A stretch of 64,000 nucleotides of DNA. Source: Nitzschia sp. DOCU1 (taxonomy: Eukaryota > Bacillariophyta > Bacillariophyceae > Bacillariales > Bacillariaceae). The stretch spans positions 992,001-1,056,000 of the forward strand of contig OX595990.1 in NCBI GenBank assembly GCA_951394045.1, written 5' to 3'. This document shows positions 8,052 to 60,400 of the stretch, piece by piece (position 1 is the first letter of the stretch; every line of letters begins with the position of its first letter). The position numbers and the translations under genes are program-made. The notes beneath the pieces are model-generated. The model made no database searches, had not been told where the DNA came from, and was given only the letters and a program-made list of their open reading frames with translations.

Positions 8052-8853
8052 GAGTACGCAACTTGATGGTCCAAACCCAAGGAATTGTGAGCGCAAGGAT
8101 GAGAAGAGAAGATGAGAATCTTTTGTATCCAGGTCAGGTAGATTGCTATCCGGACTTTCGTTTTCGCTGACGCTGGTGATGTGATGGTGATGGATGGTTT
8201 CGATCCATAAAATTCTACTTTTTAGAAACGTTATCGATGATATTACGGTGGGGAAAATTCCATAAATATCTACCGGTACTTAGGTCAAACGTGCAAGAAA
8301 GGAACGACTCCATCATCATAATTTAGACAAGGGTGCGTGCCGCATCTCATTCATCATCGAACGCGTCCGGAATGGCGCCTACTCAACTTAGAGTGGGGTT
8401 CTCGCTCTTCTTTCTTGTGGACTGACTCACTCCCCACGCCGTCAGTTGGAGGTCCTAAATTCTCCATGAAAGCTATCGTAGTTACGATGCAAGCACCAAA
8501 CTTTCGCGATCTCTAGCTAGAGAGTAGCACAGAGAAGGATTCGATTGCCATAGCATATTGAACTACCGGTATTCCGAGTGGGCAATCTCTTTGACGCACG
8601 CAATCGAGTCTGAGTTTTTCAAGTTATTTAAGTCCAACATAGAATGAGATGATGAAGAATGGTGTCATTTTTAGAGTCATGGGGTTCTCGCTCTTCTTTT
8701 CTCTGGACTGGCTCACTTCCCACGCCGTCACCTCTCTACTAGAGAGAGAAGGCCAACAATTTGGGGTTCTCTACTAGCTAGTAGTAGAAAGAAGAATACT
8801 GTAGCTACACAAGCCTTCGCGGTATGAAAGATTCGAAAATAAGTTGCATGCCA
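8052..8853. other. Spacer between the fasciclin paralogs
   Basis: No gene seen. It should hold the promoter of paralog A. An approximately 55-bp block containing GGGGTTCTCGCTCTTCTTT and CACGCCGTCA occurs twice (about 8394-8448 and 8680-8730), and CTAG/CTAGTA-rich patches are frequent. Two TACCGGTA palindromes lie at 8271 and 8564. Confidence 0.6.
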
Positions 8854-10404: not shown

Positions 10405-10912
10405 GAGCACGCAAGCAGATGGTCCGATGACGAACGAAGAAAGATTGTGGTGAACATAAGGATGGGGTGAAATGATAAGAAGCTCTTCTGTATTCAATGG
10501 AGAGGAGATTGCTATCCGGAAGGTAGTTTGGATGTGAACATGTTTTATGCTGACGCTGATGATGTGATGGAAAGTTCCATCAATCATGCGAAGTGACTGA
10601 CGCCACTAATTGTTTTGAAAAGATAGCGCGCCGTCCCTCTCTCATCTTTCTGTTGGGGACTCGCTCGCGGTTCGCCCGCCCGTCCACCCTCTTTTGGTCG
10701 AAGAGGTCTACCGTAGTATATAGTCGCAGGGAGACATGCTACGATACGAGTATGGTAAAAAGTCGGCAACATGGAAAGGAATTTTCTTCTGATATACCAA
10801 GACAAGGCAAAAGGTAATAGCTCATCTTGTTGTTTACCTCTCTACGTGTGAAGTAGGGACGTCTCCGATGCTTTTGTCAATGATATTCCTTCTTGCCAAA
10901 CAAAGCCTTCTA
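10405..10912. other. Intergenic, 5' of fasciclin B and 3' of PFK
   Basis: No coding signal recognised. It holds the fasciclin B upstream region and the PFK 3' end. Confidence 0.5.
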
Positions 10913-32100: not shown

Positions 32101-32373
32101 CCCGTTCAAGTAGACGCCCCATGACAATCTCGCAAACGCCGCCTTCCACGGTACCAGCGCCGACCATTCCGATGCATAGCGGTCGCATGATATCCCCACC
32201 ATGACTGAGGTTTCGGCATTTCATGTGACAACGATGCCTTGGATGAAGTGAAAGAGAGGGAGGCGAAACGCTGTGGATTGACAAGGCGGAACGACGAGGC
32301 ATGGGCGAAGGTACGAAGAGCTAATCGGCGAACTCATTGATCCGTTGAGCCGAGTACTCCAATCACGAATCAA

Positions 32374-32512
32374 TGTCAAAGTTCTTGGCCTGCGCCAAAA
32401 ATCTTGGCGAATCATCCCAAAGTTCTTGGCCTCAGGCCAAAGTTCTTGGCCTGCGCCAAAGTTCTTGGCCTCAGGCCAAAGTTCTTGGCCTATGAGGCCA
32501 AAGTCATTGGCA
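32374..32512. repeat. Palindromic unit array, right copy
   Basis: The same AAAGTTCTTGGCC units as at 29690-29818, in the same order of linkers for the last four units (TCAGG, TGC, TCAGG, TATGAGG). One unit has decayed to AAAAATCTTGGCG. Confidence 0.8.
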
Positions 32513-33287
32513 TCCGTTGACCGAATTACCGCGAAACACAGTTTAACGCGCTAAAAAACTTCTCGCGCCGGCCGGTCATCGCGCCAGTCGGGCCCCATTG
32601 GAAGTTCCAGGTGGTGGCCAAAAGTTTTTGATTTACCCGAGAGCGTAGACCAAGCAACGGCCCAACAATACTCCGAGCGAAAAAGCTTCTCTTCGCTCGA
32701 CGAAGAGGGACCTCAAGAGTACTACTATGGCTGGGCGGAGATTCCGAATACCCCGCGTAGAATTCTACAGCAGCCTACCAGGTGACGTCAAATCGAGCCT
32801 GCCCGCCATGGCGCGCGCAAAACTAGCGCGACGAAATTCTAATAGAACAGACAGTTGAGAAGGTAGATTCCAATAAAAATTTATTATCCAGGACATGGTT
32901 CTCGTTATCCACAGGCTGTGGTATACAATCTACCAAGGACCACATACAGTGACTCGTGGTACGTACTTTACAGCGCTACACAATTTCCTACCACGTTGTA
33001 TTTTGGGCAAGCGGGAGTTCGACCACGAAACATGCAAATCGGCGCATGTCGGCGGCAGCTCATTCTAAATACTCTTCTAAATACTCGTCGCAACATCGAC
33101 AAGATCACATTTCCCGCTTCGTTGCTCCAACTTCACTCTATGGAAGCAACCACTCAACAATCAGTCAGTCCTCACTCAACAATCAATGGGCCTCTCATAA
33201 ATTACAGGAAGTGTAAAATCTTCTGCAGTTGCTACTGCTGAGAGGAGTCCCAGCTACTGCTGACAGTCGCAGTTTCTACGAGCAAAA

Positions 33288-33737
33288 ATGGATGAATTCA
33301 AGGTGGAAGATGTGGTGTTGGCCTGGAACCAAACAATGGGGTCGCCAGACGAAGTGTCCTTGACCATCAAAGGACCCCCTGGTGTGCAGAATGGTTGGAA
33401 GATGGCCCATCGTGGCATGAGGAGCAAGCCGGTCATCTACGACCCAAGGAAGGCAATGAAAAGCACCCTTCGTTCTGCCATTCGCAATGCTTTAAGGCAG
33501 CTCGGGGAGAGAGTCTTTCCTTTCTTCAGGGACGGGCCCTTGAAAATGTGCATCATATTCGGCATGAACAATATTCTTAGCAAGGATATTGATAACATGG
33601 CCAAATTCCTCCTAGACTCATTGCAAGGAGCACTCTACAGCAATGACCGGTTCGTGGTTTCAACTCTAATTTCAAAGGTACCATCGCATGGAGAAGAGTA
33701 CACTATTGTGAGCATTTCAAAACTTCACATCAATTAA
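33288..33737 (+). CDS. RusA-like Holliday junction resolvase
   Basis: 149 aa, intact, single exon. Signature: an early I-K-G-P-P (P-P substrate loop of RusA), then a helical part with basic residues, and the catalytic block K-D-I-D-N-M-A-K-F-L-L-D-S-L-Q-G-A-L with the Asp-x-Asp-Asn-x-x-Lys-x-x-x-Asp arrangement typical of RusA (D of D-I-D-N plus the following D coordinate Mg). N-D-R-F-V-V-S follows as the strand after the active site. RusA resolves four-way DNA junctions and is mostly phage or bacterial; an element-borne or virus-derived copy is likely here. It is convergent with the recombinase gene. No intron or leader is seen. Confidence 0.8.
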   Translation: MDEFKVEDVVLAWNQTMGSPDEVSLTIKGPPGVQNGWKMAHRGMRSKPVIYDPRKAMKSTLRSAIRNALRQLGERVFPFFRDGPLKMCIIFGMNNILSKDIDNMAKFLLDSLQGALYSNDRFVVSTLISKVPSHGEEYTIVSISKLHIN

Positions 33738-33748
33738 CAATCTACATT

Positions 33749-33802
33749 ATAGTTACATGTTTCTATTAGTCGTCATTAACAAAATATAATAGTTACATGT
33801 TT
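33749..33802. repeat. Direct repeat between the convergent element genes
   Basis: ATAGTTACATGTTT occurs at 33749-33762 and 33789-33802, 40 bp apart, in the 80-bp gap between the two stop codons. It may be a transcription-end signal or a recombination site. Confidence 0.7.
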
Positions 33803-33816
33803 GTATTCATTAAATA

Positions 33817-36357
33817 TTAGAGTCGCTGTCTCAACTCAAGTATTGCGCGATCATGTTGCATCTTTCTCATGCCCTCTATTGCTCTCCTTTCATTTAGAAA
33901 TGTAGGATTATCAGCTAGAGCATGCATTTGCTCTGCTTCTGACAGATGCTGTAGCCCAAATGATGCTGCTACCCTTCGGATCATTGAAGCCATTGCCCTG
34001 TTGTAGTCCCTCTCAATTTCCTCCCTCTTCGGAGCCAAGGCTAGATCCAAAGCCCGTAGAGGTGGCCTATATTGTGCTGGTCGCCCTGGTGGTGGAGGAT
34101 GAGGAGGCATTTGCTGGGGGACTAGTCGTGGCTGCTCTGGTCATCTTCTTTGTGCTGGTGGTGGCTGCACCACTGCTCGTTGTCGCCTTTGTGGGGGTGC
34201 TGGAGGCTGTTGTTGCCGCAGTGTTCTTGTTGCTGGTGCTTGTCGTCTCCTTGTTGTGTGCCTTTCATCATCATTATTATCTTCTTCAATCTCTTCAGCA
34301 GCTCGCTTTCTAGGACGGAAATCTGCTGCCATCTTCCTCTTCTGCTCTGCAAATGCACGGGGTGACAGTTTTTTGGGAACGCCCTTGGAATCCAAAACTA
34401 TCTGGCCATTATCATCCCGAACTACTGCTTCTTGCTCCAGTGCTTGAATTGCATTCTCATGATCTTTGCCACTGCTTCGCTGCTTTGCATATAGGTCCAC
34501 CAGGAACTTGCGCCTACTGTACTGCAGGGCAACTTTTGCGCCCCAGATTCGCGAGGCATTCGCAACTTGGCGGAAGTTGTCCAAATTATTGGTCGACCAC
34601 TCCTGTAGCAGCTCTTCAAAAGACGATGGGAATTTTATTCCCATGACAGGCTTGTTTGGCCTAGCACTGTCTCGAAGGACTGTCAGTGCATTTGTCCTTA
34701 TTGTTGTTGTTGTTGTGGGAATGAGGGCGGAAGCTGCTGGGGGCACTGAGCGTTGTGGTGGGGGGGTCACTGCCATCACTTGAGCCTGGTTTTGCGCTTG
34801 CAGGGTTTCCACAAGACGGGAGATTTGTTTCTCCAAAGAATCAACACGGCGTTGCAGGCCCTCGAATGCAGTCCGTGCAGCAGCATTGAGGGCCACAATC
34901 GCCTCGGGTCGATGGTTGCCATGTGCAGCTTTCACCTCGTTTTGACTCATGCTTGCCCATTGCTCGTATCCGGGAATGCCGAGCAATAATTGGGTGAAAG
35001 GGTGATTTGGGAAGTCCTGTATAAAGTAGATTCCGCATTGAACTGCCACTTCCACAAGGAACGGTATTACCTTGTTCAGAAAGTTGTGTGCGCACTCTGT
35101 CTTATCCCCGTTCCTGCCGACAGCCTGACCCCGCCAATTCTCGATTTCGGGGAGAAAATGTTTCTCCAATGCTTTTAGAGCATGGGGAAGTTCTAAATTT
35201 GTTTCAGGGACGAAGTAGGCCTCTTTCTTCGAGAAGCCTGACTGGACGTGGCATGCTTCACTGTCGGCTTCTGCTTGGTACGAAGCATTTATCTTGTGCT
35301 CCACGATGTGCTTGGTGAACGAGGAGATTTGGTGGGGATTCAGCGCGCCAAAGTTCTGAATCGCTATGCTTCGCTGGTGGGTTATTTTCCAGCTCTTAAC
35401 ACCCGCACTACGATAAATAGCAGTAAAGGCGCTTTTATGCTCTAAGTAGGGAGTGTGAGATAACAGGCGAATTCAACAATGATAACATGCTGCTTCAGAA
35501 CTTACGACTGTACGTGGTCCAATCAATTAGCTTCTCGTCCCACCACTTAGGGCGTCCTCCGCCACGGGCTTTCTGGAACTTCAAGCGCCTGCCCATGTGG
35601 CGCAGTTTCCAAAGCAGTAAAAGAGCAGTGGAGAAATTAGGGCATAACAAGTAGTCCCGGTGTCGCCAGGTACATACTTGTTTCACTGAGGTAAAGCGGT
35701 CCTTGTGTACTGCCCCCGAGCGAAGAATAAGCATAAGGGCGCAGCTTTGTTCCCCACCTTCTACGTATCCATCGGGCCCAAAACCATCGGAAATTCTTAA
35801 ATCTTTAAGTGTCATGTTGCGCATGGATGCGCCACGAACAGCCGCATTCTGACCCCAATTAAGGGCCATTGAGGCAGTGGCCCAATCAGGATGGAGATAG
35901 GCGGCTCTAAGTAATTTCTTCCGTTCGCTGGGCGGCATCATGTCCTTGCAGAACCTATGGGGGCACTTATCATCCGTGTCTGCATTCTGCTTGTTGGCCC
36001 AATTGATCTGCTGGACCCTAATTGCCTGTTTGACATCGTTTGAGTCAACCTCAAAACCACCACGAGGGTACTCTACATACCTAGCATACCACTCCAATGC
36101 TGAAACAATACGACGAATGGAGTTCTGTTGACCATCACGGTGAATGACCGCAGCAGAAAAGTATGCATCCACATTCCACCTGGTCAAGTAGGGGATGGCT
36201 CATCAAGCCCCAACTCTTCCAAATTCTCATCAACCCACTTTTTGAAACGATTCCATTCATTTTGGTATGATTGATTTGACTGCTCATTTTGGAGGATGTT
36301 TGCAGCATCCTCCTGCAACCGCTCTTGTTGTTGTTGTTGTTGGTTGCCTCGCGTCAT
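33817..36357 (-). pseudogene. Crypton-type tyrosine recombinase with GCR1_C-like domain, decayed
   Basis: From ATG 36357 (M-T-R-G-N-Q-Q-Q-Q-Q-Q) an N-terminal SAM-like core-binding domain runs (W-N-R-F-K-K-W-V ... R-I-V-S-A-L-E-W-Y-A-R-Y). One missing base near 36184 shifts the frame before L-T-R-W-N-V-D-A-Y-F. The catalytic domain has the box I Arg (V-R-G-A-S-M-R-N-M-T-L-K-D-L). A 64-nt intron (35505-35442) brings in T-H-Q-R-S-I-A (box II; H-x-R where H-x-x-R is usual) and a candidate Tyr in N-A-S-Y-Q-A-E. A coiled coil and a GCR1_C-like block follow (F-E-E-L-L-Q-E-W ... Y-S-R-R-K-F-L-V). An in-frame TGA at 34141 interrupts a Pro/Gln stretch before a last helical segment. It would give about 825 aa if whole. 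Confidence 0.75.
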
Positions 36358-38524
36358 TTTTTCCGATCTATGAGGAGAGCGGCGCGAGAACTTGCCTCCA
36401 ACAACGGCCAAAAATATTTTGCACCTCCCGTAGCTCGTGCGTCCGTTATCTTTCTGCCAACTGGAGACTCCTGATAGCAAGCGTGCCCCGCCGCGACACT
36501 ATCCGGGACATTTATCCAGTGCAGTTTCTCTATGTTTGCGACTTTTCTGGATGCACGTTTTGGAGCCATTTCTCCTATCTAATTTTGAATCCTCGCGTTG
36601 TTGTCCATTCTTTATCGTTTATCCAGTCTTATCCAGGCGCCGCTGCCGACGCTGGCCTCTCTTTGCACATATACCGAACCGCCTAACAAAATCTCATAGT
36701 GTGGGTCGGGCTCTGGATTACTATGGGGAGGCAGGGCATATGTTATCTAAGCTACATAGGAAGTCCCGAATCCTTATCCAGATGATAGAGAAGGAAGTCG
36801 AGAAACTGAGCTTGGATGATGTTCCCAGGATTCCGTAGAGCAACTTTTCATCCAATGACACTCTCAACAATCCAAAACTTGTTCTACGGTATCCTGGGAA
36901 TCTTATTCTGTTGCAGCAATGTCTCCCAACAATGGCAGTAGTAGTAGTCGAGTATGATAGCAGCAGAGGGAAGCAAAGTGACGCCTTCGCCGTCTCTCCT
37001 TGAGATCGCTTGCTAGCAGTACCATCGGATAGCAAAATAGACTAGTATTTTAAGCTTTGTGGTTGGCGATACCCCGTCATAGTTACCAAGAAGTCCGGCC
37101 AAGGAGCAAGTTTCTTGGCGCAGCACCACCGGCAGTAGTACTTTCTCCACGAGAGCAAGGAAAACTGCCGCCCTTCGTACTGAAAAAGAAGAGCTCAGAT
37201 ATCAAATTCAAACCTTGGTAAAAAGCTTGTGTCTCTTTGGGCAACGAAGGCTTGTACACGTCAGAGATCTTCATCGATTGGTGGAGTGATCAGCAAATAC
37301 TGGTGATAGGCATGTGCTTTTGGAATCCGAAATTGCTCAATCACATGTTGAAGTACGCAATGCCACTGCACTTAGCTGAGCCTATCAAAGCCAGATTGAA
37401 GACCAGAAAGTGGAACTTTCACCATGCAAGGCAGAGAAGAAAATTGGCGCCGGGAATCATATGTTGGAGTGGAAACTTTTGGCAATAAAAGTCAATGGCA
37501 AAGACACAATGGTTTTCCCTTGAGACGGAGCTTGATCATAAGAGAAGAGAGTATATTTCAATCGTTATGATGGTTTCAAACCTGGAAAGCATGAATTAAA
37601 AGTTGCGTCAAGAGCTTTTCCAAAGCAAAGCTGGACTCAACATGAAGAGCTTATCCGAGGTATACAATCCGAGAATGAACACTTCATCTTGAAGCCGAAG
37701 GCAGTTGCGTTGTCGGTTGGTTAGTTGGCTAACGGGATAAATGAAGCAGCCGGTCGAAGGACTTGAACGGCAAAAGAATAAAATAGCCAACGACGGTTGT
37801 CCCGCCAAGATGGGTTGGTTGTAGAGTTGTAAAGCTGTCTCCGAGTGAAGCAGCATCATTGAAATATTCCTTTCCGGCTGCCACAACATCAAAGTGTTCT
37901 TCCTTTGTTCCATGGGAGGGGTAGGAGTAGTGGTGGCATCAGGTTCAGCGATGATTGAATTGAATGTGTCAAAATGAAATGATCATGTTGCGTCGTTGCG
38001 GGTTGGAATGAAAAAGTCGTGGTTTGTGAGAGGTGGAGGCAGGCTACGAGGCCTCTGGTACATTTTTTACAAGTGGTACTTAATTCTACGCCAGGTAAGA
38101 CGTAAATCCACCCAGCTATACTAGTACTTTTGGCTCCACCAACCAACCAACAAGAACTTCTTGTTGGAGCTAGGGAGTACTAGTACAAACTCTATATAAC
38201 TTTATCATCAGCATGACGTTGAAAGAACAACTACTAGCTACTAGAAGCAGCAACCTCGTGTTTATCTACTTAGTATGCCAAATCGCATGGAGACGATGTA
38301 GCGAGACCTTGCGCATGCGTCGTGGAAATGATTGGTCGACTGATTCGATTGCGCGGGGGCGAGTCGAAATGGACGAATGAGGGACGGCCGCCAACGGCAG
38401 CAACGAACGCCCACCGCAGGATATTCCCATGGCTGCCAATGCCATTTTCTCATTGCATTGTTGCCTATCGCTTGTCTCTTGTTCACGTCCACACAGTTTT
38501 CTCTTTCTTATTCTAACAGATACC
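36358..38524. other. Long non-coding region before CCT8
   Basis: 2.2 kb. The left part holds the recombinase upstream region and TTATCCA words. At 37080-37620 short open pieces on the plus strand look like decayed coding DNA, but I recognise no family. The fold-back at 38119-38185 and the CCT8 promoter occupy the right end. Confidence 0.45.
38119..38185. repeat. Nested inverted repeat upstream of CCT8
   Basis: The outer 10-bp arms TACTAGTACT (38119-38128) and AGTACTAGTA (38176-38185) enclose a perfect 21-nt palindrome, CCAACAAGAA-C-TTCTTGTTGG (38147-38167). It could form a stem of two blocks about 340 bp upstream of the start codon. Confidence 0.75.
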
Positions 38525-45508: not shown

Positions 45509-48500
45509 TTAGGATCCTTGACAACGAATGGGGTCCTCGCTCTCCACAACGCAGGTACATCCTTGACCGTCGACACAGCAATGGCTGCAACACGGACACG
45601 AAATTTCGTCACAGTCCGCGTAGGCCACGGGCTGGGTCAAGTCAAAGATGGAACACAGAGCGTTCGGGACGGCGCCTGTCAAGTCGTTTTCGTCTATTCG
45701 AAAGACACGAAGTTGACTCAAGGCGGATATTTGCTGGGGCAGTTCACCGGCAAAAAAGTTGCCCTCCAAGCGAAGTTGACCTGTATTTACAAAGAATGAA
45801 TCAATGATTAGAATGGAAGCACGAAGGAAACGATAAAATGTCATTGGAAATCAGACTTACGGAGGGCGGTGAGAGATCCAATCTCGCTAGGGACGGATCC
45901 GATGAGTTGGTTACTGGAAACGTCAAACCCATCTCGGAGGCGAGTCAACCGTCCAATCTCCGACGGAATGCGGAAGCCAAATTGGTTACCACCCAAGTAG
46001 AGTCCTTGCAGGTTGACAAGCAAACCAAGTTCGGTGTGGATAGTTCCACCAATGTTGTTGTTGGACAGGGACAAACTTTCCAAATTGGCCAATCGGCTTA
46101 TCTCGCGAGGCATCTCTGAAAACTGGTTGTCGTCCAGGTCCAGCGTCACTAATGAGGTCAAGCGAGAAATCTCCGACGGAATGGCCCCAGTCAATTGATT
46201 GTTCTCCAAAAGAAGATCGTTCAGTTGAGTCAAGTCTCCAACATCAGTTGGAAGAGCACCAGCCAATTCGTTGTCGCCCATGTCCACAAAGGTAAGGCTG
46301 CCCAGGTCTCTCAAGACCGCAACCGGGACCTCTCCCGTGATGGCATTTCCGTTGAGGTCAAGTGTCTCCAGTTCTGCCAGCGTTCGGTAAGCCAGTGGGA
46401 CATTTCCAGAGATACCGTTACCTCGGAGGTTTAATTCCTTCAGCTGAGTCAAGAATCCCAACTGCGAGGGCAGCGAACCGGACAGAGACCCGGTAGAGAA
46501 GAAACCTCGAATGTTGATGCGCTCTAGACTGTTGGAGAGTAATCCAAGCTCGGGAGGTAGTGTTCCCGCTACATTGTTGGTGCCAAGCACCAAGTTTGCA
46601 AACAAACGATCAGAGTCGCAAGAAGGTCCTCCCGCTGCATACCAGGTGCATTCATCAAGGTCACTCAGCCAGTTGTTGTTGTCGGTCCAATCGTCTCCAT
46701 TCGTAGAGTAGTAAAAGACTGCCAACACCCATCGGATAATCATCTTCTGTGCGTCGTAGAAGTCAATGTTGGCATTCCCTTCCAGCCATGTCAACGCTAC
46801 AGACTGGACCGATTCCGGGTCATCAAAAACAACTGGGGGTGTTGTTGGTTCGGAACCGCGGATAATGACGGCACGAACATCTTCAGCAGGAATAGCGGTA
46901 GGAGTATCTGGGTCCAGAGGAGGAGTAGGAGCTACTGTTGGACTTCCGCCCGGAGGAGTGGGGGTGGTTGGCGTGGGTGGCCCGACGGGAGCAGATGTTT
47001 CCTCATCGTCAAGATTCAAAACACCAATGCCAATTCCAATTCCACCACCAATTCCGATCAAAATCAGAAGGCACATTAGCAAAATGCACCCACATCTTCT
47101 TCGGTTTCGCTTCTCAGCTGTAGCATAGGCCGGGGCATGAGTGCGCACGATCTTTGTCTTCTTCGGTTTTGGTTTTGGCTTGGGTTTCGGGGGCGGTGTC
47201 GCCTTCATTGGTTTCGGAGGAGGTTTCTCTTTGGTCTTCACCTCCTTCTTCTGCTTCTTGTCTTCCTTGGGAACAGCTTGGGCAGCTTGGGCCTCAAGAT
47301 CTGGCTCCTCATCTTTGTCTGCTACCGCTACAAAGCCAAAAAGTCCTTTCTTTTTCTTCTTGCTCTTGGTATCCTCAGCCTTGGGGACGTCGTCAGACCC
47401 CTTGGCCGCCAGCTCGACAGACTGAGTGGATGGATCTCTCTTCGGCTTCTTGCTCGACGAGACGGAACTCCTGCTTGAACTGTCGCTGGAGCTACTGCTA
47501 TCGCTGGAGCTGCTGCTACCACTAGAACTGCTCGAACTTTCGCTCTTCTTTTTCTTGGTGATGTAATCAAATTCACCCTTCTTCTCGGCATCCGTCTTCT
47601 CGGTGATGTACGAGAAGTCCTCCTTGGAATCAGTCGCCGAAGACTTCGTTTGTGAGTCGCTTACCGTAACCTCCTCGGCGTCGCTATCCGATTCGACAGT
47701 TTCGGCCACAACCGATTCAACAACAACTGCCTTCGCGGCAGTTTTCTCCTTCTTATCCTTTTTCTTCTTATCTTTTTTAGCTTTCTTCTTGTCCTCATTG
47801 CTACTCTTGGAGGAGGAGGTGCTGCCCTTGCTCTTAGCGCTGGAAGGCTTCGCTTCAGTGGCGAGCGTCGGCGACGCTGCAGCCTTTTCAGCTACAGCCT
47901 TCTTTTCTTCCGAGCTCGATTTGCTCGATTCCATCTCCTTCTCTGCATCCTTGGCAATGGATTCCAAGAGACTTTCTGCGTCAAAAGAGCTGTCATCGTC
48001 ACCCGAACCGCTACTACCACTACCCGTGGCGTCCTCGTCAAAAACAGCATTCGATTTTTGTTTCTCGATCTTCTGTTCACCCGGCGGAGGCGCCTGCATG
48101 GCTGCAGACTCTGCGCCAACTAAAAGCTCCTTCAGCTTGCTATCCTTTGGAGCCAGTGCCTCGTCAGCTGCTTGAGAATTCTCATCGTCCTCACCAAGCA
48201 ACGTCGCCTTCTTTCGTCCTTGCTCGATAGTGGATTCCAGGGTACTGTTGTTGCTACTTTCAGGCTCTTCTGAAGATTCTTCTGTTGACGCGTCTGAGCT
48301 GTCATCTCCAGATGTAGACGTGTCCTCTGTTGACGCTTCTTCTGAGCTTTCCTCCTCGGAGGTGTCGTCTGAGGTGTCGTCGCTCGTCTCTTCGTCCGAA
48401 TCTGAAGAGTCAGATTTTGAAGTGGTTTCTTCTTTGCTCGTGGTGTCCTCAGTGGTCTCTTCAGTGGTATCTTCCTCACTACCACTCTCCGAAGTGGCAT

Positions 48501-49332
48501 CGGATGATTCTTCTCCCGACGAACTATCGTCTGAAGTTCCATCAGATGTTTCCTCGTCATCGTCGGAACTTTCATCATCTTTCGATGTTCCAGTTTCTTG
48601 AGTGGACTCCTCTTCCGAGGCTTCTGAAGAACTGTCTTCGGTTGTCTCAGCGTCAGAAGATTCTTCCTCGGAACTGTCCTCTTCAGTAGTACCACTCTTC
48701 TTTGTTGATTCCTCGGCCTTGGAAGAATCCTCGGTGGTCTCTTCAGCATCGGAGGATTCCTCTTCAGATCCACTCTCATCTTTAGACTCGGAGGCTTCCG
48801 ATGACTCATCCTCCTTCGACTCGGATTCCTCTTCGGATGACTCATCCTCCTTTGATTCTGATTCGTCTTCAGATTCGCTTTCATCTTTAGACTCAGAGGC
48901 TTCAGATGATTCATCATCCTTAGACTCGGCCTCAGATGATTCTTCTTCATCCTTTGAGTCGGAGGCATCGGAGGATTCTTCCTCTCCAGATTCAGAGGCA
49001 TCAGACGACTCTTCTTCTCCCGATCCAGATCCAGATGCCTCTGAAGATTCTCCTGACTCGGATGTTGCTTCTGACCCCGATCCGGACTCCTCGCCGTCCG
49101 ATGTCTCGTCGTCTTCGCTGCTTTCGGCGCTGCCGGATTCCTCTTCCGACCCCTCTTCGCTTTCTCCAGACTCAGAAGTAGCATCAGAATCGGAGGTGGC
49201 CTCTGAGCCTGACTCCGAAGTACCATCGGAATCAGAAGTAGCCTCGGATCCGGATCCGGATCCGCTTTCTTCGTCGCTGTCGCTACTGCCCGACGTGGTG
49301 GTCGACTCGTCTCTTTGTCTACGTCGGCCCAT
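45509..49332 (-). CDS. LRR membrane protein 1, acidic Ser/Glu/Asp-rich N-terminus
   Basis: Two exons, 49332-45861 and 45780-45509, with an 80-nt GTAAGT intron (1247 aa). Residues 1-380 are almost only Ser, Glu, Asp, Thr and Gly. A Lys/Ser region follows, then one membrane segment (about 748-775, I-L-L-M-C-L-L-I-L-I-G-I-G-G-G-I-G) and a Pro/Thr stalk. Next is the cap V-L-A-V-F-Y-Y-S-T-N-G-D-D-W ... W-L-S-D-L-D-E-C-T-W-Y, about ten LRRs (L-x-x-L-D-L-x-x-N-x-L-T-G) and a Cys-rich tail (S-C-P-C-C-S-H-C-C-V-D). There is no kinase. With no signal peptide the acidic part should be cytosolic and the LRRs outside. The function is unknown; a surface receptor or adhesion role is inference. Confidence 0.85.
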
Positions 49333-50448
49333 GGTGTTATTGTTTTATCTAACCATTAACTCCCTTTGTTGTTATTGGAAGGAAGAAGATGGACTCCTCC
49401 AGTGACCGCCGTAGCAACGGCTTGTTTTTTCCTATGGCGCTGAGGCAAGAGATCCTTGCGGCAGGTCGCCTAAAATGCAAAGTTTTCGATTGCCTTTTTT
49501 AGCGTGCAAAAGCCTTGATGGCGCCAAATTCTTCGTTGTTTTTGGTGACTTGCCTCCACAAAATTACGCGAAATTTCGTACCGACCAAAAGGCAAAATGA
49601 GCTTGTGTCGTGCGAGACCCCCAAGAATTCAATGACCCTAGGATGTCACATAGAAAGAACATATGAGTTTTTCGAGTCTTATGACACACCTGGGACACTT
49701 GTAGTATCTTGAAAACCACTTGATTCCCGAACGGCCGCCAAATAGTCGACAACAGCTTCCGAGTTACGATGGTATGGATAGCTACTGAGTATCGCACTAC
49801 AGATGAGCAGGAAAAATCCCTTTTCTTTTTGCTTCTTCACGATACGGTCCTTCCGAAAGATATCAGTGGTTGCCCTAATAGTGCTACTCCGGAGCAATAG
49901 TGCATCGTACGGTAGCTACTGACTCTAACAGCTATTCAGAGTGATGTATTCCGGCTTTCGGGCAACTTTCTTCTAGCGGATCTCAACTAGTCTAATAGGT
50001 AAAAGCAGCGAAGACTGGTGGTTGAGATTCAAAGCCACCCTTGACCGCTCGAAAGCGGCCGGAACAACTACTGCACCACGACGTAGTTAACCCGATGGAT
50101 CTCCCTGCATCATTGGGAGGGCCGAGGCGATCACCACACAACTCTGCCAGCCGTCCAGTATCGTACTGGGGAAGACTTATCGACATTTTTCACCCTGGTG
50201 GGATAGTAAAGGGTAACAGCAGGCGATAGTAGTACTAGATCGGCTTGGAAAAGGGCCATCTATTTCAACTTCAATTTGTACTAGAAAGAACGCCACTAAC
50301 CTTACCAGCAGAAAAACTAAAAGGCTGACATCTGGTAGGGAGTATAAATAGGCTTGGGTCCATCTTCCTATTCGTTAACGATTCCAATCATGTCGTTTTC
50401 AGGTTGTCGCGACACATTTCTAGTAGCCGTAGGTCAAACAGCCTCCAG
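49333..50448. other. Intergenic between LRR proteins 1 and 2
   Basis: 1.1 kb. It holds the promoter of LRR protein 1 and the 3' side of LRR protein 2. No supported gene; short open frames on both strands have no domain. Confidence 0.5.
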
Positions 50449-53400
50449 TTAGAGTGCCTTCTTTTGTTGGTAGCAAAGAAACTCGTGTGGAGTACCCAGG
50501 TACCTGCAATCACAACCTTCGTCGTCGACGCAGCAACTCGTGCAGCAAGGACAATTATCCAAAAACTCACCACAGTCGGCGTAGAATGCAGGGAAAGTTC
50601 GGTTGAACGTTGTGCATACTGAGAGAGGAATCGTCCCTATCAAATCGTTCGAATCGACGCGGACAGTGGTTGTGCGGATAAGGAGAGAAAATTCGTCAGG
50701 TATCGTCCCAGACAATTTGTTATGTTGTAGCTCGAGCATACGCAAGCGATTCAGATTGCCGAGTTCTGTTGGTATTTGGCCAGTCAAATGGTTGTATGAT
50801 AGGTCGATCCTGTCTCTCATATCAAAGAGACTGCCAAGTTGAGAAGGGATTGGTCCCGTCAGTGCATTGTCGGAGAGCTCAAGAACGATCAGGCGACGCA
50901 TCCGGCTCAGCTCGCCAGGGATAGTCCCCACAATAGTATTCTCGAAGAGTGATAGTGTATCGAGAAAGGTCAAAAGTCCAAGTTCCGTCGGTAAGGTGGC
51001 AAGCATGTTCAATCCACCATGAAATGACTGGAGCCGTCTCATCAATCCAATTTCCGACGGAATAGGACCTGTCAGCAAGTTGTTCTCGACCGAAAACCGC
51101 AAGCACCTTTCCCAATTCCCAATCTCGGTAGGGATTTGTCCGCTTAGGCTATTAGCACTGGCGTCCATAAGAGTCAATCCACCGAGTCTGGAAACGGGCG
51201 CGCAAGATCGCTGTGAGTTATCACCATTTTTTAGTCGTCGGCTGAAATTCAAGGTTACTTACCTTCCAAGCTCCGTTGGAATGGGTCCCGTAAGGCTATT
51301 CGTCGACACATCGAATTGACTCATAGCGGTCCATTGACCAAGTTCAGTTGGAATGGAGCCAGAATAGGCGTTTCCCCGTATAACAAAGATTTCCAAATTC
51401 GTCAGATAACCGAGCTCAGACGGAATGGTCCCCTCCGTGAAAGAGACAGGGCCACCTGACAGGACCAGTCGCTCTAGGGAGTTGGAGAGCAAGCCTAGTT
51501 CTGGTGGTAATTGTCCGTTGACATTGTTGTATTCCAGTTCCAGATTCTGCAAATTTCCGGCACGACTGCACGGCAGTCCAGGACTTCGACTGTACCAGAG
51601 GCATTCGTCCGTTCCAGAAAGCCATAACGTTTTGAAGAACCAGTCATCGCCGTGGGTACTGTAGTAAAACGTTGCCATTGCATATCGCTGCAGCAAACGG
51701 TCCCCAGTATAGTTCTTCCCTATCGCATCGTTTGATAGCCACAGGTACGCCTGGTGCTGAGGCGTCTCCGGTTCCATGAGCGCTTGCCCGCCGTCAAACG
51801 ATTGGGCGGCGAGGAATGCCATTAGATTGAAATCCGTGGGACCGGCAGTGCCGACATAGCTGGGGCTAGTAGTGGGCCCTGGGCTCAGAGAGACGGTTGG
51901 TATCAAAATTGTTGGCGACGGAGACGGTGGATCAGGGATTAAATCAATGATGTCAACTGGAGACTCGGGGTTGACGCTGTCGAGCTCGGACTGCAGTTGA
52001 CCAGTCTGAATCGCCAGGTCTAGAACAAGCTTGAAATCCGCCCAGTCATTTTTGGCATCCTGAAGTGTAATGTACGCAAACACTTGCTCGCATTGGTCTC
52101 GATCGTTTGGCTGCGGGCACGCCGTTTCTTGGAACCGATTGATCGTCGACGGTAACAAGACTTCTGCCAATCGCCTTCTCGTTCCCCCCGAACGGGCGAT
52201 ATTCAGATTGGTCTCCACTACTTGTAAAAGTCGATTCATACTTTCAATGAGATCGCTCTCGTAATCCTCTGGCGAAATATCCTGTGTTTGCCCATTCCGG
52301 ACGACAATCTGATAGACACTTTCGAACGATATCGTGAAGATGGTCGGACTAGGACTTGGAGCACTCGACGGGGTACCTGTTGGCGTTGGCGTCGTTGGAG
52401 CTGGTGTCTTAGTTGGTGACAGAGACGGTGAAGCTGATACAGTTGGGCCCGGTGTCGCAATGGTAGGAGTTGCAGTAGGCATGGGAGATGTGGTGGGCGA
52501 CGGCGTTGACGGATCCCTTAGATTCAATACGCCAGACAACAAAAGGCCGAGGACCACCGCAGTCCCAACGAACACAGCGAAAAGCAGACAGCAAAAATTT
52601 CTTCTGCTACATCGAGCAGCCTTGTCGAAACTCGTTGAGTTGTCTTTATCGCCGGTGCCCTCCGAGTTCGAAGCTGGAGATTTGACGGGATCCATGACAA
52701 ACGTTCCATCGTCCTCGGAGAAGAGCATTTTAGAAGGAGAACCCGACGGTGAATACGAAATACCATTGCCTCTTTCGGGGTCGTCATCTTCATGGACGAT
52801 GGGAGACAGCGTTTCACCACCTGCACTGCCAATGGATCCAATCGTTTGTAGGAGCCAATTGGTGTCCTTCACCTTGGAATTTTTGGTTTCGGGAGTTGTG
52901 GCCACTTGCGTGCCCGAGTTGGTGGCTACTTGCGTGCCCGAGTTGGTGGCTTTACCATGCGGGCTATTCTTGGCTTCAAGGTTGGTTTTCTTGCCGTTTA
53001 CAGCGGAAACGTTTGGCGAACTTCTCTCATCGGTCGGAAACGCCGATGAACCGATGGACGACTGAGAACTAGATCGTTTTCCACTTTTGGGAGGCCGCAA
53101 AAATCCACCACCAATCCAAGACTGCGATTTGGGCCGTCCAGTCGCAGGGACCTTGGGTGACGGACGACTTTGTTGTTGTTGAAGAGCAAAGTCTAATTCG
53201 TCACTACTTTGCAAGGCCATGGAAACTGTAGTAGAAGCCGGCATTGGAACAGCAGCCGGTAACAAATTGCCCTTGTTGCGATACAATGGAGGCAGATTCT
53301 CGCGGGGAAATTCACGCTCATCACTCGGAAAGACCAGCGAAGAAGTGGTGCCGATGGACGACATGGTATCGGACCGTTGCGCCGTTGCAGCCTTGGGGAT

Positions 53401-55665
53401 GGAAGGAGTGTTGTTGTTGTCGATTTTCGACTTTGCGTCCCCTGTAGAGGGAAACAATAAACCATCCAACGAGTCCAGCAAGCCTTGGGCCCGTAGCTTA
53501 CCAACGTGCTCTATCTTTGGCGGCTCGAATGGCTGATTTTGTTGCACCTGATTCGTTTGCTGCTGCTGCTGCTGCTGCTGCTTGACTCTGACTTTGCTGC
53601 TATCCGCTGCTGGAGGTTCCGGAGCCAGTTGCCGTCGAAACACTCGCGGTGATTTGGAGGACGCATTTGCATATTTTTCGGGCGAGTCTAATTGCTCTTC
53701 CAATCGTCGAATCGTTTGCGCCTGTGCCGAAACTGGCTGAATTCGTTGGCCGCCGCCGCTGCTCTCCTTGCTGGGCGTACTATTCTTGGATGACGACAAT
53801 AACGTCTTGTTGTCCTTACGGTTCGACGAATCCCCCATGCCGCTGCTACTATCTTCGGACGCGGACGTGGATACAATGTCGTCCTGACTTCTCATGCTAA
53901 CCATGGAACTGGAGGAATCATCCTCTCGTTCACCACCTACCAAGTTGACTGCTTCAGTTATTCCCTGCATTGTTTCTCCCGTGGCCTGTTTTCGAAAGCC
54001 AAATCGTTCCAATAAGGATTTGGAATGTCCCGACGAACCAGAACTCGTCGTTTCGTGCGATACTTCGGTGGGGGCATCCTGTTGTTGTTGTTGTTGTTGT
54101 TGTTGTCGACGAATCGCACTGAAGGTTGATGCAGATACCTTTCGTTCCTGGCTAGCGGTAGTCCTCTGTTGTTGCTGAGCCGACTTGGGACTCGAAACGT
54201 GGGTAGGTGGCGAGACTTTTCTCCCTTGCTGCTGCTGCCGCTGTTGTTGAGTGGGCGGTGTGGCCACGGGTACCAGAGGCGATCGAGTAGTAGAAGGATG
54301 AGGAGGAGTGACTTTGTGCTGCTGCTGCTGTTGCTTTGGAGGTGTCGTCGTCGCCAAAGGTGGAGACGACGGAGACATTGCCACACTGGAACTGCTAATA
54401 CTGCTGTGGGATGGAGATGACAAGTAAACTTCGGAATGCTGGGATTTATCGGCAGACGATGATAGGAATGGATTCCATGGAGAAGACCCCAGGACATTGC
54501 GCCGTTGTGGAGGTTGCAGTTTAGGACTGGGTTTGGGAGGCTTTTCGTCGTCGGTGCTTGCCATTGCTTTTTGTGGCGTCGCCACACCCGTACCAGTACT
54601 TTGACGACTGGGTGTCGAATAGGGTGAGGATCGTATAGGACTGGGTTCATCGTCTGGAAACTCAAATCCTCGTTCTCCTCCGCCTCCTCCTTCGGAAAAG
54701 TGGTGCCGGCTCCTGATGCTACTGCTACGACTCGGCGTACTCCCTGGAGACGACTTGAGGACACTATAATCGACCATGGACAATTCTTCTTGTAATTGTC
54801 GTCGAATTTCTTCCAAATCTTCTTCTTCTTGTGTCAAATCATCATTGTCCTTGTCCAGAGGACTAAAACTGGTATGACCCAGTGGCCCGAGTCGTTTTCC
54901 TGTCGAGAGTAAAAGTGTATTAAGCGTCTTGACTTGATCCGAAAACCGTTCCTTGACACTGGAATCACTGTCGGATGCTGAATCGTCATAGTCGGGCGTC
55001 ATGACTACGACATTGCCAGTAGGGGATGGTGTTCCCATTTGAATCGGATCCACGCTGCCGACCGAAGATTGTCCCGTTCTAGGGGCTCCTGGTGTGCGCA
55101 ACGCTTGCACTGCCATGGGACTCGCAAACGCACTGGGTCGAAAACTGGGCGTAAAGTGACGAGTCGTAGAAGGAGAAGCACTCGAGAGGGTCGGTGACAC
55201 CCAGGATCGAAGAGGATTCGATGGTGGTTGTGGTTGATTTTGCCATCGCGGTGGTCGAGTGACGGCAGACGGCGGCATGTCCTCCATGGGCGGAGAGTAC
55301 TCTGTGTTGCCTACTAATTGATTCGCAAAGTTTGCATTGGACGCATCCGGAGGCGTCGGTCGATAAAGATTCAATGATGGAGATGTTTCTTCCGATTCTT
55401 CCGAGGACATGGTCAAAACAGGAGGTGGGGGTGGGGGTGACTCGAGGTCGGCCAATGCTTGCACATTGTAATTTTGTCCCGAAGCTGGACTATCCTCTTG
55501 ATCCAACAAATTCCGTTGCTGAATTTCTTCTTCTTCTGGTCCAGCAACATCGGTCAATTCCATGCCCATGGGAGACCCAAACCCATGACGAGCGGCTGCT
55601 GCCTTGGTGGCTCGTCGATGAGGCGCAGCGGGAGTTTCATCATCTTCGTCCATGTGCCGTCTCAT
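50449..55665 (-). CDS. LRR membrane protein 2, poly-Q-rich
   Basis: Two exons, 55665-51263 and 51187-50449, with a 75-nt intron (1713 aa). The long N-terminus (1-1020) is low-complexity with several Gln runs (CAA/CAG tracts, for example at 53560, 54080 and 54310), Ser/Pro regions and a doubled T-N-S-G-T-Q-V-A. One membrane segment lies at about 1022-1046 (F-C-C-L-L-F-A-V-F-V-G-T-A-V-V-L). A Thr/Pro stalk, a cap with W-L-S-G-T-D-E-C-L-W-Y, about 12 LRRs and the Cys tail D-N-C-P-C-C-T-S-C-C-V-D-D follow. It shares the architecture of LRR protein 1; the splice lies inside an LRR (E-L-G-R / L-G-G-L). Confidence 0.85.
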
Positions 55666-56111
55666 GATGATGATTGTGGCAAATTACTAACAATGGAACA
55701 CAGGGTTGTGTGTAGACAAGCAGTTGTGTGTGCTGAGATGGATTTCAGGAAAGTTTGTAACAGGGCCGAAAGAGAATTGAATGATTGACTCTACGCTAAC
55801 TACAGATGCAACACACAACCATACACTACATTCGGGATGGTCGATCATTGATGTGCGCCACGCCATTGGCCAAAATTTATCCCGTGGGGGTCCACAAAAA
55901 TAGTTGGAGATCAAAGGATTCAAATTCAATGACTCCTAAGTAACCAAAGTATACTATCTTCAGAATGTTATAAGACATTCAAATCAGTAATCTCTCATCA
56001 AAAGTCGTTTTATCTGGGAAGACAAACACGCAATGCGTGGATAACTAGCCAATAAATTCCGATCACTCGGGAGATTTTAGAGCCGGTGGGTCGGACGCAG
56101 CTCGGCAGCAG

Positions 56112-56600
56112 ATGAGAGACGGTTCAGCGCCGAACCGCTCCAAGAAAATGCCGCGCGCCGCGGACGTCAACAAGGATGAGACCGTCTGCACGTCTCAAAC
56201 GAGCCAGCCAGCCATAAATCAACACATGAACAACACGAGCCAAGGCGGGAAATGCATGTCATGTGGTAGCCATGATGCAACGTCGAATGGAAGCATTGAA
56301 ACGTGTTGTTGTTGTGGACCATGGAGGGATACCGTCGAAAATCTCAACTTGCACGCACGGACTAGACAAAAGAAAGTCTTCCTAGATCGAGAAAGGAGAC
56401 GACGAGACAAAAGTGCTTGGCTTACAAAGGACCGTACTGTTTGTCTTGCCTGCTCTCTACCGGTAGTTGGTTGCTGCTGCGATGGATGCAAGGACTGCTA
56501 CGACCACCAGCACCACGCGCTGATGTCCCCCTTGCTTCTTGTTCTTGCTCCTCTGCTGTTGGGGTATACTAGTATTTCGACCGGCCCGAAATTTTTTTAA
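56112..56600 (+). CDS. Possible Cys-rich hypothetical protein
   Basis: 162 codons from an ATG. Cys patches include C-M-S-C-G-S, E-T-C-C-C-C-G-P-W and C-L-A-C-S-L-P-V-V-G-C-C-C-D-G-C, with a basic helix (D-R-E-R-R-R-R-D-K) between them and a hydrophobic C-terminus. Metal binding is possible. Nothing else supports it, and it lies within intergenic DNA between two LRR genes, so I keep it at low confidence. Confidence 0.3.
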   Translation: MRDGSAPNRSKKMPRAADVNKDETVCTSQTSQPAINQHMNNTSQGGKCMSCGSHDATSNGSIETCCCCGPWRDTVENLNLHARTRQKKVFLDRERRRRDKSAWLTKDRTVCLACSLPVVGCCCDGCKDCYDHQHHALMSPLLLVLAPLLLGYTSISTGPKFF

Positions 56601-57401
56601 TTATCGAGTGAATGCTATTTCGAATAGTAGCCGGGTCGCTTTCTTGCCCTCGCGCTGCTACTAGCAGCCGCCGTCGTTGCGTGCTGTGTGCCTACCATTA
56701 CCGGTAGCTATAGAGTAATACCTACCTCACCAGTGCACTGTGCTACAAAATGATACTACTAGATCTAGTGATTACCTTGTAGTCGTACTAGAAAGTCCTA
56801 GAGCTGGTGAAGTATGTACCGGTAGTTGCTCGTAGCCGAGAACTACTACCTGGTAGGTGTATACCGATGCCACAAAACGTAGCGAACAGACGTCGGTGAC
56901 AGATCACCACGTATTTCAAGTATCGTACTTTTTCCGGCGTCATCCGAGCCGAAAAAAGGTGGCGAAACTGAGGCGGGAAATTTCTTCTCCCTAAGTAATT
57001 GTGGTGATGACAGCTCAAAGACACGAAATTGGGTTTAAGTACCATAACAGGGCTTATTCTTCTAGTCGAAGCGAAAGCTAGTGGTGAGCATGAAACCACG
57101 CAATATTATTATTTTGTTGTGTCGTAAGACCCAATCGCCGGATTTGCCTACCGGTAAGACCGACGGCAGACAACGATCGCTCGAGACATCCCCATCCGGC
57201 CTGTTTCGTCACGAAAATCTCGCTCGGAACGACGAAACCAAGTGCGACGAGAATTGGGTTGGTGTGTGAAACTGGGATCAAGCTGTGTCAAGGTTCCGAG
57301 TTTCAGACGAGTTGCAAGGTGTATTAACTCTATATCCTTACTACTAGTCGTACCTCTAATTGAAAGATTTGGTCGATATTGGTGACGTTTGACTACCGGT
57401 A
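56458..57401. repeat. Cluster of five TACCGGTA palindromes
   Basis: Positions 56458, 56699, 56817, 57149 and 57394. The last is the centre of a perfect 12-bp palindrome ACTACCGGTAGT; the first extends to CTACCGGTAG. Eight further copies are scattered over the window. Confidence 0.85.
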
Positions 57402-57461
57402 GTGGTTTGAGAATTCGAAGATTTTCAGGGGTACTCCAACTTGGAATCGACAGTCCCCATC

Positions 57462-60400
57462 ATGGCCGACTACAGTTTCTCCAGCGCGGCTATGCGAAGG
57501 AAAAAGCCAAATATCAAGACAAAAATGGGGGATGGGGAAGATACAGATGCTAAAGAGTCAGCTCCCTTGGGTCCTGCCCATTCCACAGTGAAATCGGCGG
57601 CGCCATCGGCTCCAGGGTCCCCACTCTCCTCATCTCGGCGACAGTCCAAGGAAGAGTCAAAAGAACCACTATCTCTGTCTGCTCGGTCATCCGCTTCTGG
57701 TGGTAGCAAAGTGCAGAATTATATTGCCAATCTCAATAAATCGAAAGGGCCTACACCTGCCGTTTCCGAGGGGTCCTCCGACAATTCCAAGGGGTGGAAG
57801 AAATCGGCGCCAACATCGAACGGGGGGAGTTCTAAAGACAATTGGCTACAGAAGGGAACAAAGGAGGAAAAAATGACGAGGGAAACATCAATGTCTTCTA
57901 GCAGCGGTTCGTCTGATGACTCGGAGCTGGGTTCAAAGACCATTGACAAGTACCGAAAGAAGTACCTGGATGGTGAAAAGACAAACGGGAAGGGCAGCAA
58001 GGGTACTAATTTGAAGACTTCGTCATTTGAAAGCACTGGGGACGACTCAAATAAGGATACCTATAACAAGTATCGGAAGCAGCTGACGGAAAATAAGGAC
58101 TCTGGGGACAAGTGGGCGGCACCAAAAAAGAAAATCGGGGCGCCACCCCCTCTGGAATATAACTATCGTTATTCGTCCGCTCCGAATGCATCAAATGCGA
58201 AGGAGAAACCAAAGCCTGTTGTACCCACGCCAGAGACGAAACCCAAAATGGAGAAGGTCAAACTCAAGTCCAATAAAATCGCCAAGGATGATTTGGGAAT
58301 TCTGGCGAGCATGTTAGGGGCGGACGACTCTGACTCCGAAAGTGAAGCATCTCGTGGGATATTTTCTGCTAGTTCTGAAGATGAAGGTCCTTATATGGAC
58401 GGACAAAGCTCTGTGGACGATGACCCTGTGCTTTCTGAGAAAAGTGATCGCCAAGACCAGGACAAAGTTGAACATTCTGAGGCATTTGAAGAAGTTTCGG
58501 TGAAATCCGAATCGTCGTACGAGGAGGAGGTCGTGGACGAAGTTGAAGAAGAAATCGTAGAGGACGAGGTCGTGGACGAAGTTGAAGAAGAACTCATAGA
58601 GGAGGTTATCGAGGAAAGTCCAGCTCAAAAGCCGAAACCCTCCCTTTCTTCCCGACTGGCAAAGTTGCACAGTCTCAAGAAGGCCAATGAATTGGACAAA
58701 GGCGGAAGTAATTCCATTCAACCGAATATACGAGAGGATCAAGTAGAGGAGGAAGGTCTTGGGAATTTCCTGGACAATCGGATCAACACGAATAAGTTGG
58801 GCAAAGACAAGTCAGAACGATCGGGATCGAGCGGTCTTGACGGCGACGATTTTTCGGCGCTCTGGGCACAAAGTGTTGACTCTCAGTCGCGACGAAACAC
58901 AACGGAGCGAGATGAAGACTCAACAAGTAGCGCGGAGCTTTCCAAAGAGATTCATGATGCCCCAAGTCCTCTTGCGTTGGGAGCTTCGAAGTCTGGGATA
59001 CCTGACGATCAAAGCCTGGAGTCCTCGGACAGTACCCTCGAAGCATCTGGAAACATTGAATCGTCTTTTCGTTTAGATGTTTCTGAATTAAGTGGCGACG
59101 ATGTGTTTCCCAAGACCACAGCGGCGCCCAAAGCAACTAAGGCTCAAAAGCCGGTGGAGTCATCGTCCGACAGTGATAGTGAAGGCTCCTTGGACTTCGA
59201 CAAGTTGACTGGCCTGGAACAATACACTATGCAAGACTCCAAAAATTCTTCTGGAAAACAGTTTGAGACGCAAACGCCCGTCATGTCTAACAAGAAAACT
59301 CCCAATGGAAAGGCGCCGCCAAAAGAGTTGAAAAGGGGGCCTGATGGAAATAACGAGAAGTTGTTGGCGGTCGCAAGGGAGGAGGAGAGCGACGGGTCTT
59401 TGGATGCATTCGATTTGGGCGGAAAGCCTCCAAAACAGCCAGAGAAAAAGACCGACTCACGAGGCGGTGGTGGCGGCGACGACGATGACGGGTCGATGAG
59501 TGATTTTTCGCTGAACCCGGCAAAGGATTTAATGGACGACAAAAGTTTATCTGAGTTTGATAAGCCGGAGTATCAGCCTCAGCGACTGTCAGAGTCGATT
59601 GACCTCAATTCAGCATTTGTTGGTCTTGACGCGGGCAGTTTGGCTGATATTGAAAATCCCTACGTCAAAAAGTCCCAGAATTCGAAATCAGCTTCTGAGA
59701 AGAGTTCAATTGTCCCAGCGGCACAAACGGTCTTTATTCCTCCACGGAAATCCATGTATCCAACTGGATATGTTCGCCATATTGGTAAAGCGTGGGTCGC
59801 ACTGGCTGTTTTGGCTGCAATTGGATTGCCAATTTACTTTTTCCTTTTCCATGGCGACAACATTGTCGATGAGACACCCCCTCTCGATCTGTTCCCAACT
59901 CCACCAACTTTTGCTCCGACAGCGGCACCAGTGGCATCTCCGACTTTGGTCCCGATTCCAACCGAGCAGCCTTTCTCGTCAGCACCTGTTCCTACCCGTC
60001 GGCCAACACCACCTCCCACTACTGTGGCTCCTACTGTCTCTCCTACTCGCAGCCGAATAAGTCTGCTACGGGAATTTCTAATCTCAGTTTGGCCCAGCCT
60101 AGAGGACGACTTCGTTGGTTTCCGTACTCCGCAGTATTTTGCTCTTGAGTGGTTGGCTAATAATGCGAACTACGAGGACTATTCCGATGACCAACTCGTT
60201 CAGAGATTTGCATTGGCGACCTTTTATTTCAGCACGTCTGGTGAGAGATGGAGGAACAACACCCTCTGGTTGTCCGACGAAGATGAATGCAGTTGGTACT
60301 CCAGCGGGAGTGTTTCTCCGTGTAATCAAGATGGTTTCTACACAAGCTTGGACCTCGATCTCAACGATCTATCGGGTACGATTCCTGCGGAACTAGGCCT

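Follow-up and report, generated by a model that had tools for sequence, protein, structure and literature searches.

A two-gene mobile unit lies within a 64,000-nucleotide stretch of the genome of the diatom Nitzschia sp. DOCU1 (assembly GCA_951394045.1, contig OX595990.1, positions 992,001 to 1,056,000). We call this whole stretch the window; it is C6:992001-1056000 of a 52.1-Mb genome in 63 contigs. The unit, element 1, is 3,936 bp long with 5-bp terminal direct repeats (Table 1), its ends being taken from a second copy on contig C5 and an empty-site paralogue on contig C9. It carries two convergent genes, one for a RusA-type Holliday-junction resolvase (RusA1) and one for a Crypton-type tyrosine recombinase (YR; here YR1). 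The preliminary description of this DNA had placed the pair between 32884 and 36780. The unit itself is borne out by the comparison of copies, with slightly wider boundaries (32859-36794), and the earlier limits coincide almost exactly with the first and last of the repeated TTATCCAG words treated below.

The ends of element 1 are defined by two other places in the genome. A DNA search of the genome with window positions 32600-36900 returned one more copy (C5), one place with the flanks only (C9) and three short matches (76-82% identity, ~90-125 bp). The C5 copy matches window 32859-35292 at 99.1% and 35289-36794 at 98.5% identity, its two parts being split by a 5.3-kb insertion. The left flank on C9 matches window 32726-32866 (92.9% over 141 bp), the right flank matches from 36788 on (96.6% over 1,337 bp), and the two join at a single GAGAAGG with the whole 3.9-kb unit missing. 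Because C9 is a paralogous place, it shows the structure before insertion and not the insertion event itself. GAGAAGG stands on both sides of element 1 in the window, in the C5 copy the left word is GGGAAGG and the right one GAGAAGG, and the core common to all these ends is GAAGG. Aligning the full copies, as the preliminary description had proposed, in this way gave both the ends and the candidate target word GAAGG. No inverted repeat of at least 7 bp was found between the two ends in the outer 160 bp. Short terminal direct repeats are the end type described for Cryptons (Kojima and Jurka 2011, PMC3212892; here and below we draw on the accessible portions of that paper). Element 1 has direct repeats in the range of 4-6 bp, no terminal inverted repeats and a single repeat at the empty site, as expected of a Crypton.

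Two further observations concern the copies of element 1. The insertion in the C5 copy (C5:~2000090-2005400) has YR-like frames of its own and lies just before the Tyr codon of YR1, so that this locus is a Crypton-like element nested in a Crypton-like element; a BLAST comparison of the insertion with most of the other loci gave no match. The right end of element 1 is covered by antisense open frames of 139 and 133 amino acids (window 36267-36838, plus strand), where the C5 copy has a frame of 189 amino acids.

RusA1 is an open gene with the residues of a resolvase. Its frame has no internal stop, and the protein matches PF05866 (E 5.7e-9, 37.1 bits, cut-off 22.8) and contains the catalytic-type block DIDNMAKFLLD followed by a later D. 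In an alignment of four RusA proteins of this genome D100, D102, N103, K106 and D120 are invariant. RusA1 thereby has both features by which we recognize a RusA protein, i.e. a profile match over the curated cut-off and the catalytic Asp/Lys block, and the intact RusA-like gene with a D-x-D-N-x-x-K-x-x-x-D block that had been reported from the sequence is upheld. Between the window and the C5 copy RusA1 differs by two silent changes and no amino-acid change, and the compared parts of YR1 differ by 7 silent and 20 amino-acid changes. These numbers, although small, suggest stronger constraint on RusA1 than on YR1. RusA2 rows (the second family, see below) involving C14:78000-87900 were left out of this comparison, as they came from a truncated tandem piece at that locus with 10 stops.

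YR1 has the motifs of a tyrosine recombinase, namely NAAVRGAS at box I, KITHQRS at box II, TKH, and a Tyr within NASYQ. Six relatives, 37-45% identical in the alignment, were found by a protein search in which scoring was limited to the 7,999 candidates with the most shared words. Both boxes are covered in five of these relatives, all of them with RGAS at box I; four have T-H-x-R at box II and the fifth has T-Y-x-R; TKH and the Tyr are invariant in the seven rows formed by YR1 and its relatives. YR1 is a recombinase of the R-H-R-Y type found in Cryptons, with Y in place of the box II His in one of the five relatives. The box II Arg is followed by the Tyr at a distance of 31, the second His at a distance of 10. 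In Cre the corresponding spacings are 32 and 9. The box II His of YR1 stands two, not three, places ahead of the Arg, and as this H-x-R arrangement is common to four of the five covering relatives, it is a family trait and not decay. Splicing of the predicted intron raises the match to PF16787 (NDC10_II) from 11.7 bits for the first exon alone to 32.3 bits (cut-off 26.3), and the relative P0013 has an insertion at the intron position. Of the six relatives, three have NDC10_II over the cut-off, one has it below, and two lack it.

The tail of YR1 is GCR1_C-like by profile comparison only. The cut-out tail scores 18.8 bits with GCR1_C, below the cut-off of 23, and a whole-length scan of the 664-amino-acid YR1 reading gave no GCR1_C match. 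A profile of the YR1 family (four members), compared with a profile of seven GCR1_C domains of this genome, reached a score of 34.2 (probability 73%), while the best of 30 column shuffles scored 16.9. The predicted structure of the YR1 family is poor (pLDDT 40). A comparison of the family with sequences of solved structures gave 17 rows (best E 0.0067; Huntingtin fusions etc.), which we took as low-complexity matches and set aside.

The YR is interrupted in both copies of element 1. Compared with C5, the window copy is frameshifted near 36190 and has a stop codon at 34143-34141; at both sites the C5 reading is open, but the nested insertion breaks it directly ahead of the Tyr codon. The core-binding part, the box I Arg and the Tyr named in the preliminary description were recovered, and its GCR1_C-like domain was recovered by profile comparison. 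Its box II split by an intron was slightly off, as the intron (35505-35442) falls between boxes I and II and box II is entire in exon 2. The two genes converge as it had stated, with 79 rather than 80 bp between the RusA1 stop (33737) and the YR1 stop (33819-33817) when the YR frame of the C5 copy is used.

Table 1. Features of element 1 in window coordinates
Feature	Position	Strand	Basis or remark
Whole mobile unit (element 1)	32859..36794	.	Outer limits, both terminal repeats included; stretch common to C5 copy; C9 flanks joined without the element
Left terminal direct repeat GAAGG	32859..32863	.	C5 and C9 comparison
TTATCCAG iteron, left end	32884..32891	+	
RusA-type Holliday-junction resolvase gene, 149 amino acids, intact	33288..33737	+	PF05866 37.1 bits; PHROG 140 48 bits; C5 protein identical
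Remainder of YR1 frame to the stop used in C5 copy	33817..34140	-	
YR1 exon 2: box II (THQRS), TKH, Tyr (NASYQ), GCR1_C-like domain	34141..35441	-	Premature stop in window copy
Predicted GT-AG intron, 64 nucleotides	35442..35505	-	Splicing raises NDC10_II score; insertion at same place in relative P0013
YR1 exon 1 after frameshift: core-binding part and box I (NAAVRGAS)	35506..36199	-	Frame reading, alignment of relatives
YR1 5' part from probable start Met, in another frame than the rest	36187..36357	-	Comparison with C5 copy
TTATCCAG iteron, right end	36512..36519	+	
TTATCCAG iteron, right end	36619..36626	+	
TTATCCAG iteron, right end	36629..36636	+	
TTATCCAG iteron, right end	36774..36781	+	
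Right terminal direct repeat GAAGG (GAGAAGG at this insertion)	36790..36794	.	C5 and C9 comparison

The same enzyme pair in the same layout is found in a second, quite different element of this genome, which tells us that the pairing is real. In this family, element 2, a resolvase gene RusA2 is present in six copies, all six convergent with a 783-amino-acid recombinase, YR2, which is uninterrupted at three places. Two of the elements with an uninterrupted YR2 are 99.97% identical and have common ends in different flanks. R209, K238, K322, R325 and Y361 of YR2 are invariant over 11 sequences, and the best VIA rows of its predicted model, a tentative structural match, are Cre and XerA; against sequences of solved structures the YR2 family gave only two rows, both with E > 1. 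The profiles of YR1 and YR2 do not match each other, and RusA1 and RusA2 are 26% identical. CGGAAAA lies within 3 bp of both ends of element 2, which we count as short direct repeats, and inverted CGAAACTT-type words are also found near the ends. Two element 2 loci have a more complex structure. The left 224 bp of the element occur twice, ~1.5 kb apart, at C14:78000-87900 (positions 2983-3206 and 4495-6450), which is a truncated tandem piece beside a larger copy, and a ~5.4-kb insertion (C8:1686632-1692030) splits YR2 of the C8 copy.

Both families have repeated words near their ends. TTATCCAG occurs five times in the window, always within element 1 and in one orientation, once near the left end and four times in the last ~285 bp on the right. 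Five are likewise present at corresponding places of the C5 copy, and the word was found only once in 76,106 bases of nine other loci. The element 2 word CGAAACTT is present five times plus once inverted in the C11 and C4 copies, and four times in the C7 copy. The most frequent 7-mer of the outer 200 bp per side has 5 occurrences in element 1 and 7 in element 2; among 500 base shuffles a count of 5 was reached once for element 1, and no count was above 4 for element 2. We infer that these iterons are candidate binding sites of the recombinases.

RusA travels with the YR in these two families. Both genes lie inside the common ends in 2/2 copies of element 1, the C9 place lacks the whole unit, and the six RusA2 genes keep their convergent orientation with YR2, in agreement with the preliminary description. 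The convergent co-occurrence that it had proposed to test across the genome is seen for eight of the ten RusA matches, which lie inside such elements (two in element 1 and six in element 2). The association is not exclusive, and three observations weigh against reading it so: two of the ten RusA matches (on C3 and C16) are not part of such an element, three fragments of YR2 are unaccompanied by a RusA match, and the majority of Crypton-like YRs in this genome are without RusA. The genome has 23 GCR1_C matches, the one nearest to a RusA being on C4, 9.8 kb off and ~7 kb beyond the end of an element 2. For the YR of the nested insertion on C5 the search gave 28 rows, seven of them very short, with long matches (30-46% identity) at 14 other places; none of these places is less than 20 kb from a RusA, and five adjoin GCR1_C matches. 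Since these matches are away from RusA, we conclude that RusA is a trait of the two families and not of Cryptons generally.

The two RusA matches outside the elements are of different kinds. The C3 gene (C3:2338000-2344000, positions 2771-3640, minus strand) is a 290-amino-acid frame (53.7 bits) that has a long N-terminal extension, occurs at a single place and has no recognised YR nearby. It is probably a host gene, and by eye its product is possibly organelle-targeted. The C16 match (C16:1-6000, positions 1802-2257, minus strand; 26.8 bits) is divergent and near the contig end. Beside it stands an orphan 484-amino-acid frame (positions 3106-4416, plus strand) with no Pfam or PHROG match and with relics on C9 (near 183-190 kb and 135 kb); what follows downstream on C16 looks by eye like the protease/reverse-transcriptase-like frames of a long terminal repeat element.

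The origin of the RusA genes was addressed by a tree and by searches outside the genome. A search of viral contigs with the alignment of the four own RusA proteins gave 35 loci with RusA relatives, 22 of which, chosen by hand, were combined with the four own proteins in a tree of 26 rows. None of 200 bootstrap trees (0%) separated RusA1 and RusA2 from the remaining two proteins of this genome, and all four sit on long branches. RusA1 found only itself among eight candidates in a large protein search, with no relative outside this genome, and had no match among sequences of solved structures; RusA2 had one weak match there, the E. coli RusA 1q8r (E 0.49). A viral origin of the elements was considered and rejected, as scans of viral contigs with YR1, YR2 and RusA2 returned no relative. 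YR2 also had no match in a scan of prokaryote genome contigs, and the relatives of YR1 or YR2 had none in PHROGs.

Elsewhere in the window, a tract of repeated AAAGTTCTTGGCC-type words (32370-32520) lies ~340 bp outside the left end of element 1. By eye, fasciclin-like frames form tandem copies in two similar sets at 6503-10587, and three long leucine-rich-repeat frames with low-complexity N-terminal parts follow in a row at 45841-61397.

Among the described Cryptons, element 1 seems nearest to CryptonF of fungi and oomycetes (PMC3212892). CryptonF elements likewise carry short terminal direct repeats (mostly of 6 bp), lack terminal inverted repeats and occur in low copy number. Their YR has a GCR1_C-type tail, which the tail of YR1 resembles by profile comparison, and the yeast Ndc10/Cbf2, described as CryptonF-derived, is in line with the NDC10_II match of YR1. 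Two differences are that GCR1_C stays below the Pfam cut-off in element 1 and that the accessory genes given for CryptonF are a C48 peptidase and a mariner fusion, RusA being unmentioned in the accessible portions of PMC3212892. CryptonS of oomycetes and the diatom Phaeodactylum shares with our elements the stramenopile hosts and terminal direct repeats of 5-6 bp, has a conserved C-terminal region other than GCR1_C, like YR2, and sometimes has a second protein-coding gene, which is again a C48 peptidase and not RusA (PMC3212892). The ends of CryptonS are mostly TATGG (PMC3212892), and neither family fits its combination of such termini with the lack of GCR1_C: element 1 has a GCR1_C-like tail and ends in GAAGG, and element 2 ends in CGGAAAA. 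Phage (PHROG 140 and 34) and bacterial (PF05866) RusA proteins share with RusA1 the D-x-D-N-x-x-K block, a further D and a profile match over the cut-off, but RusA1 is distant from the phage proteins (10 records by tblastn, best E 6e-3, 27-36% identity at the best place). The ciliate Tec1 and Tec2 transposons are also single elements encoding two enzymes that process DNA strands; in those, however, resolving the intermediates of a DDE transposase is the role ascribed to the YR (PMC3212892), whereas in our elements the YR presumably drives the movement and RusA presumably acts as the resolver. We found no Crypton with a RusA partner in the literature, with supplements, most subscription journals and Repbase outside the coverage, which agrees with the preliminary description. 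What appears to be new is RusA on a Crypton-type element; as accessory genes of Cryptons (C48 peptidase, mariner fusion) are already known, the pairing is a variant within a known element class.

We are highly confident that element 1 is a two-gene mobile unit. The fuller statement, that it is a CryptonF-like YR transposon whose RusA takes part in its movement as outlined here, we prefer only modestly, since we are far more certain of what the unit is than of the step served by RusA. A YR exchanges strands in two successive steps with a Holliday junction between them, and such junctions are what RusA cleaves. In the proposed mechanism the YR would bind the repeated sites near both ends and recombine the 5-bp GAAGG repeats, excising the element as a circle that would integrate at another GAAGG. 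RusA would then cut the branched intermediates left over, most plausibly a stalled Holliday junction, as the matching core (5 bp in element 1, ~7 bp in element 2) may be too short for the second strand exchange to finish. Excision as circles using 4-6-bp repeats has been proposed for Cryptons, and the usual spacer of YR sites is 6-8 bp (PMC3212892). With a core of 5 bp, below that range, mismatches would in most targets lie in the way of the second exchange. That RusA finishes a junction left by a too-short core seems to us plausible, with the balance slightly against it. We speculate, with less assurance, that at a very short core the YR carries out just the first of the two strand exchanges and leaves completion to the resolvase encoded by the element, which would free the element from the need for a long matching target, and that two Crypton-like lineages reached this strategy separately or swapped it. 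The suggestion of the preliminary description that RusA fills in for a decaying YR is not supported, as the H-x-R box II is common to four of five relatives and element 2 pairs RusA with an uninterrupted YR.

An alternative hypothesis could be that RusA serves replication or copy number, the circle being briefly replicated, perhaps from the iterons, with RusA resolving forks, dimers or concatemers and the YR doing all the integration chemistry. Iteron clusters at the ends of both families would fit this, as would the carriage of RusA-like resolvases by phages, where they act in a setting of replication and recombination; but no replication gene was recognised in either unit, and the iterons sit at the ends, where YR sites are expected, so we rate it as a rather improbable though serious competitor. 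RusA could also be a passenger, or have another role such as counter-defence or repair of the excision gap, and not act on recombinase products. Cryptons do take up accessory genes, e.g. the C48 peptidase of oomycete CryptonF and CryptonS (PMC3212892). The recurrence of one enzyme class in one convergent layout in two families with non-matching YR profiles speaks against a passenger, as does the contrast, in small numbers, between the changes in RusA1 and in YR1, and we consider this role unlikely.

Two further explanations concern the unit itself. Some polinton-like viruses and virophages have YR integrases (PMC12220804, as far as its accessible text goes), and the unit could be the remnant of a larger virus-like element of such a kind or of a giant virus, with a YR integrase and a resolvase. 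Complete ends around just two genes in both families, the empty scans of viral contigs and the lack of any full-length relative seen enclosing capsid or polymerase genes make this very improbable. Least probable of all, to the point of being negligible, is an accidental neighbourhood of a host or phage-derived RusA with a dead YR element; a probable host RusA does exist on C3, but RusA1 lies inside the ends of both copies and is missing from the C9 empty site, and the convergent layout is repeated in every RusA2 copy.

The finding gains weight from the fact that the pair recurs, identically arranged, in two families whose ends are defined and whose copies are recent. A Crypton-type element with two enzymes, defined ends, an empty site and near-identical copies makes the completion of integration testable, the question being whether RusA acts on the recombinase's own junctions. 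It would also be a case of a phage-type junction resolvase put to use by a eukaryotic transposon, in parallel with the C48 peptidase of oomycete CryptonF and CryptonS, and the pairing may show how such elements finish their integration.
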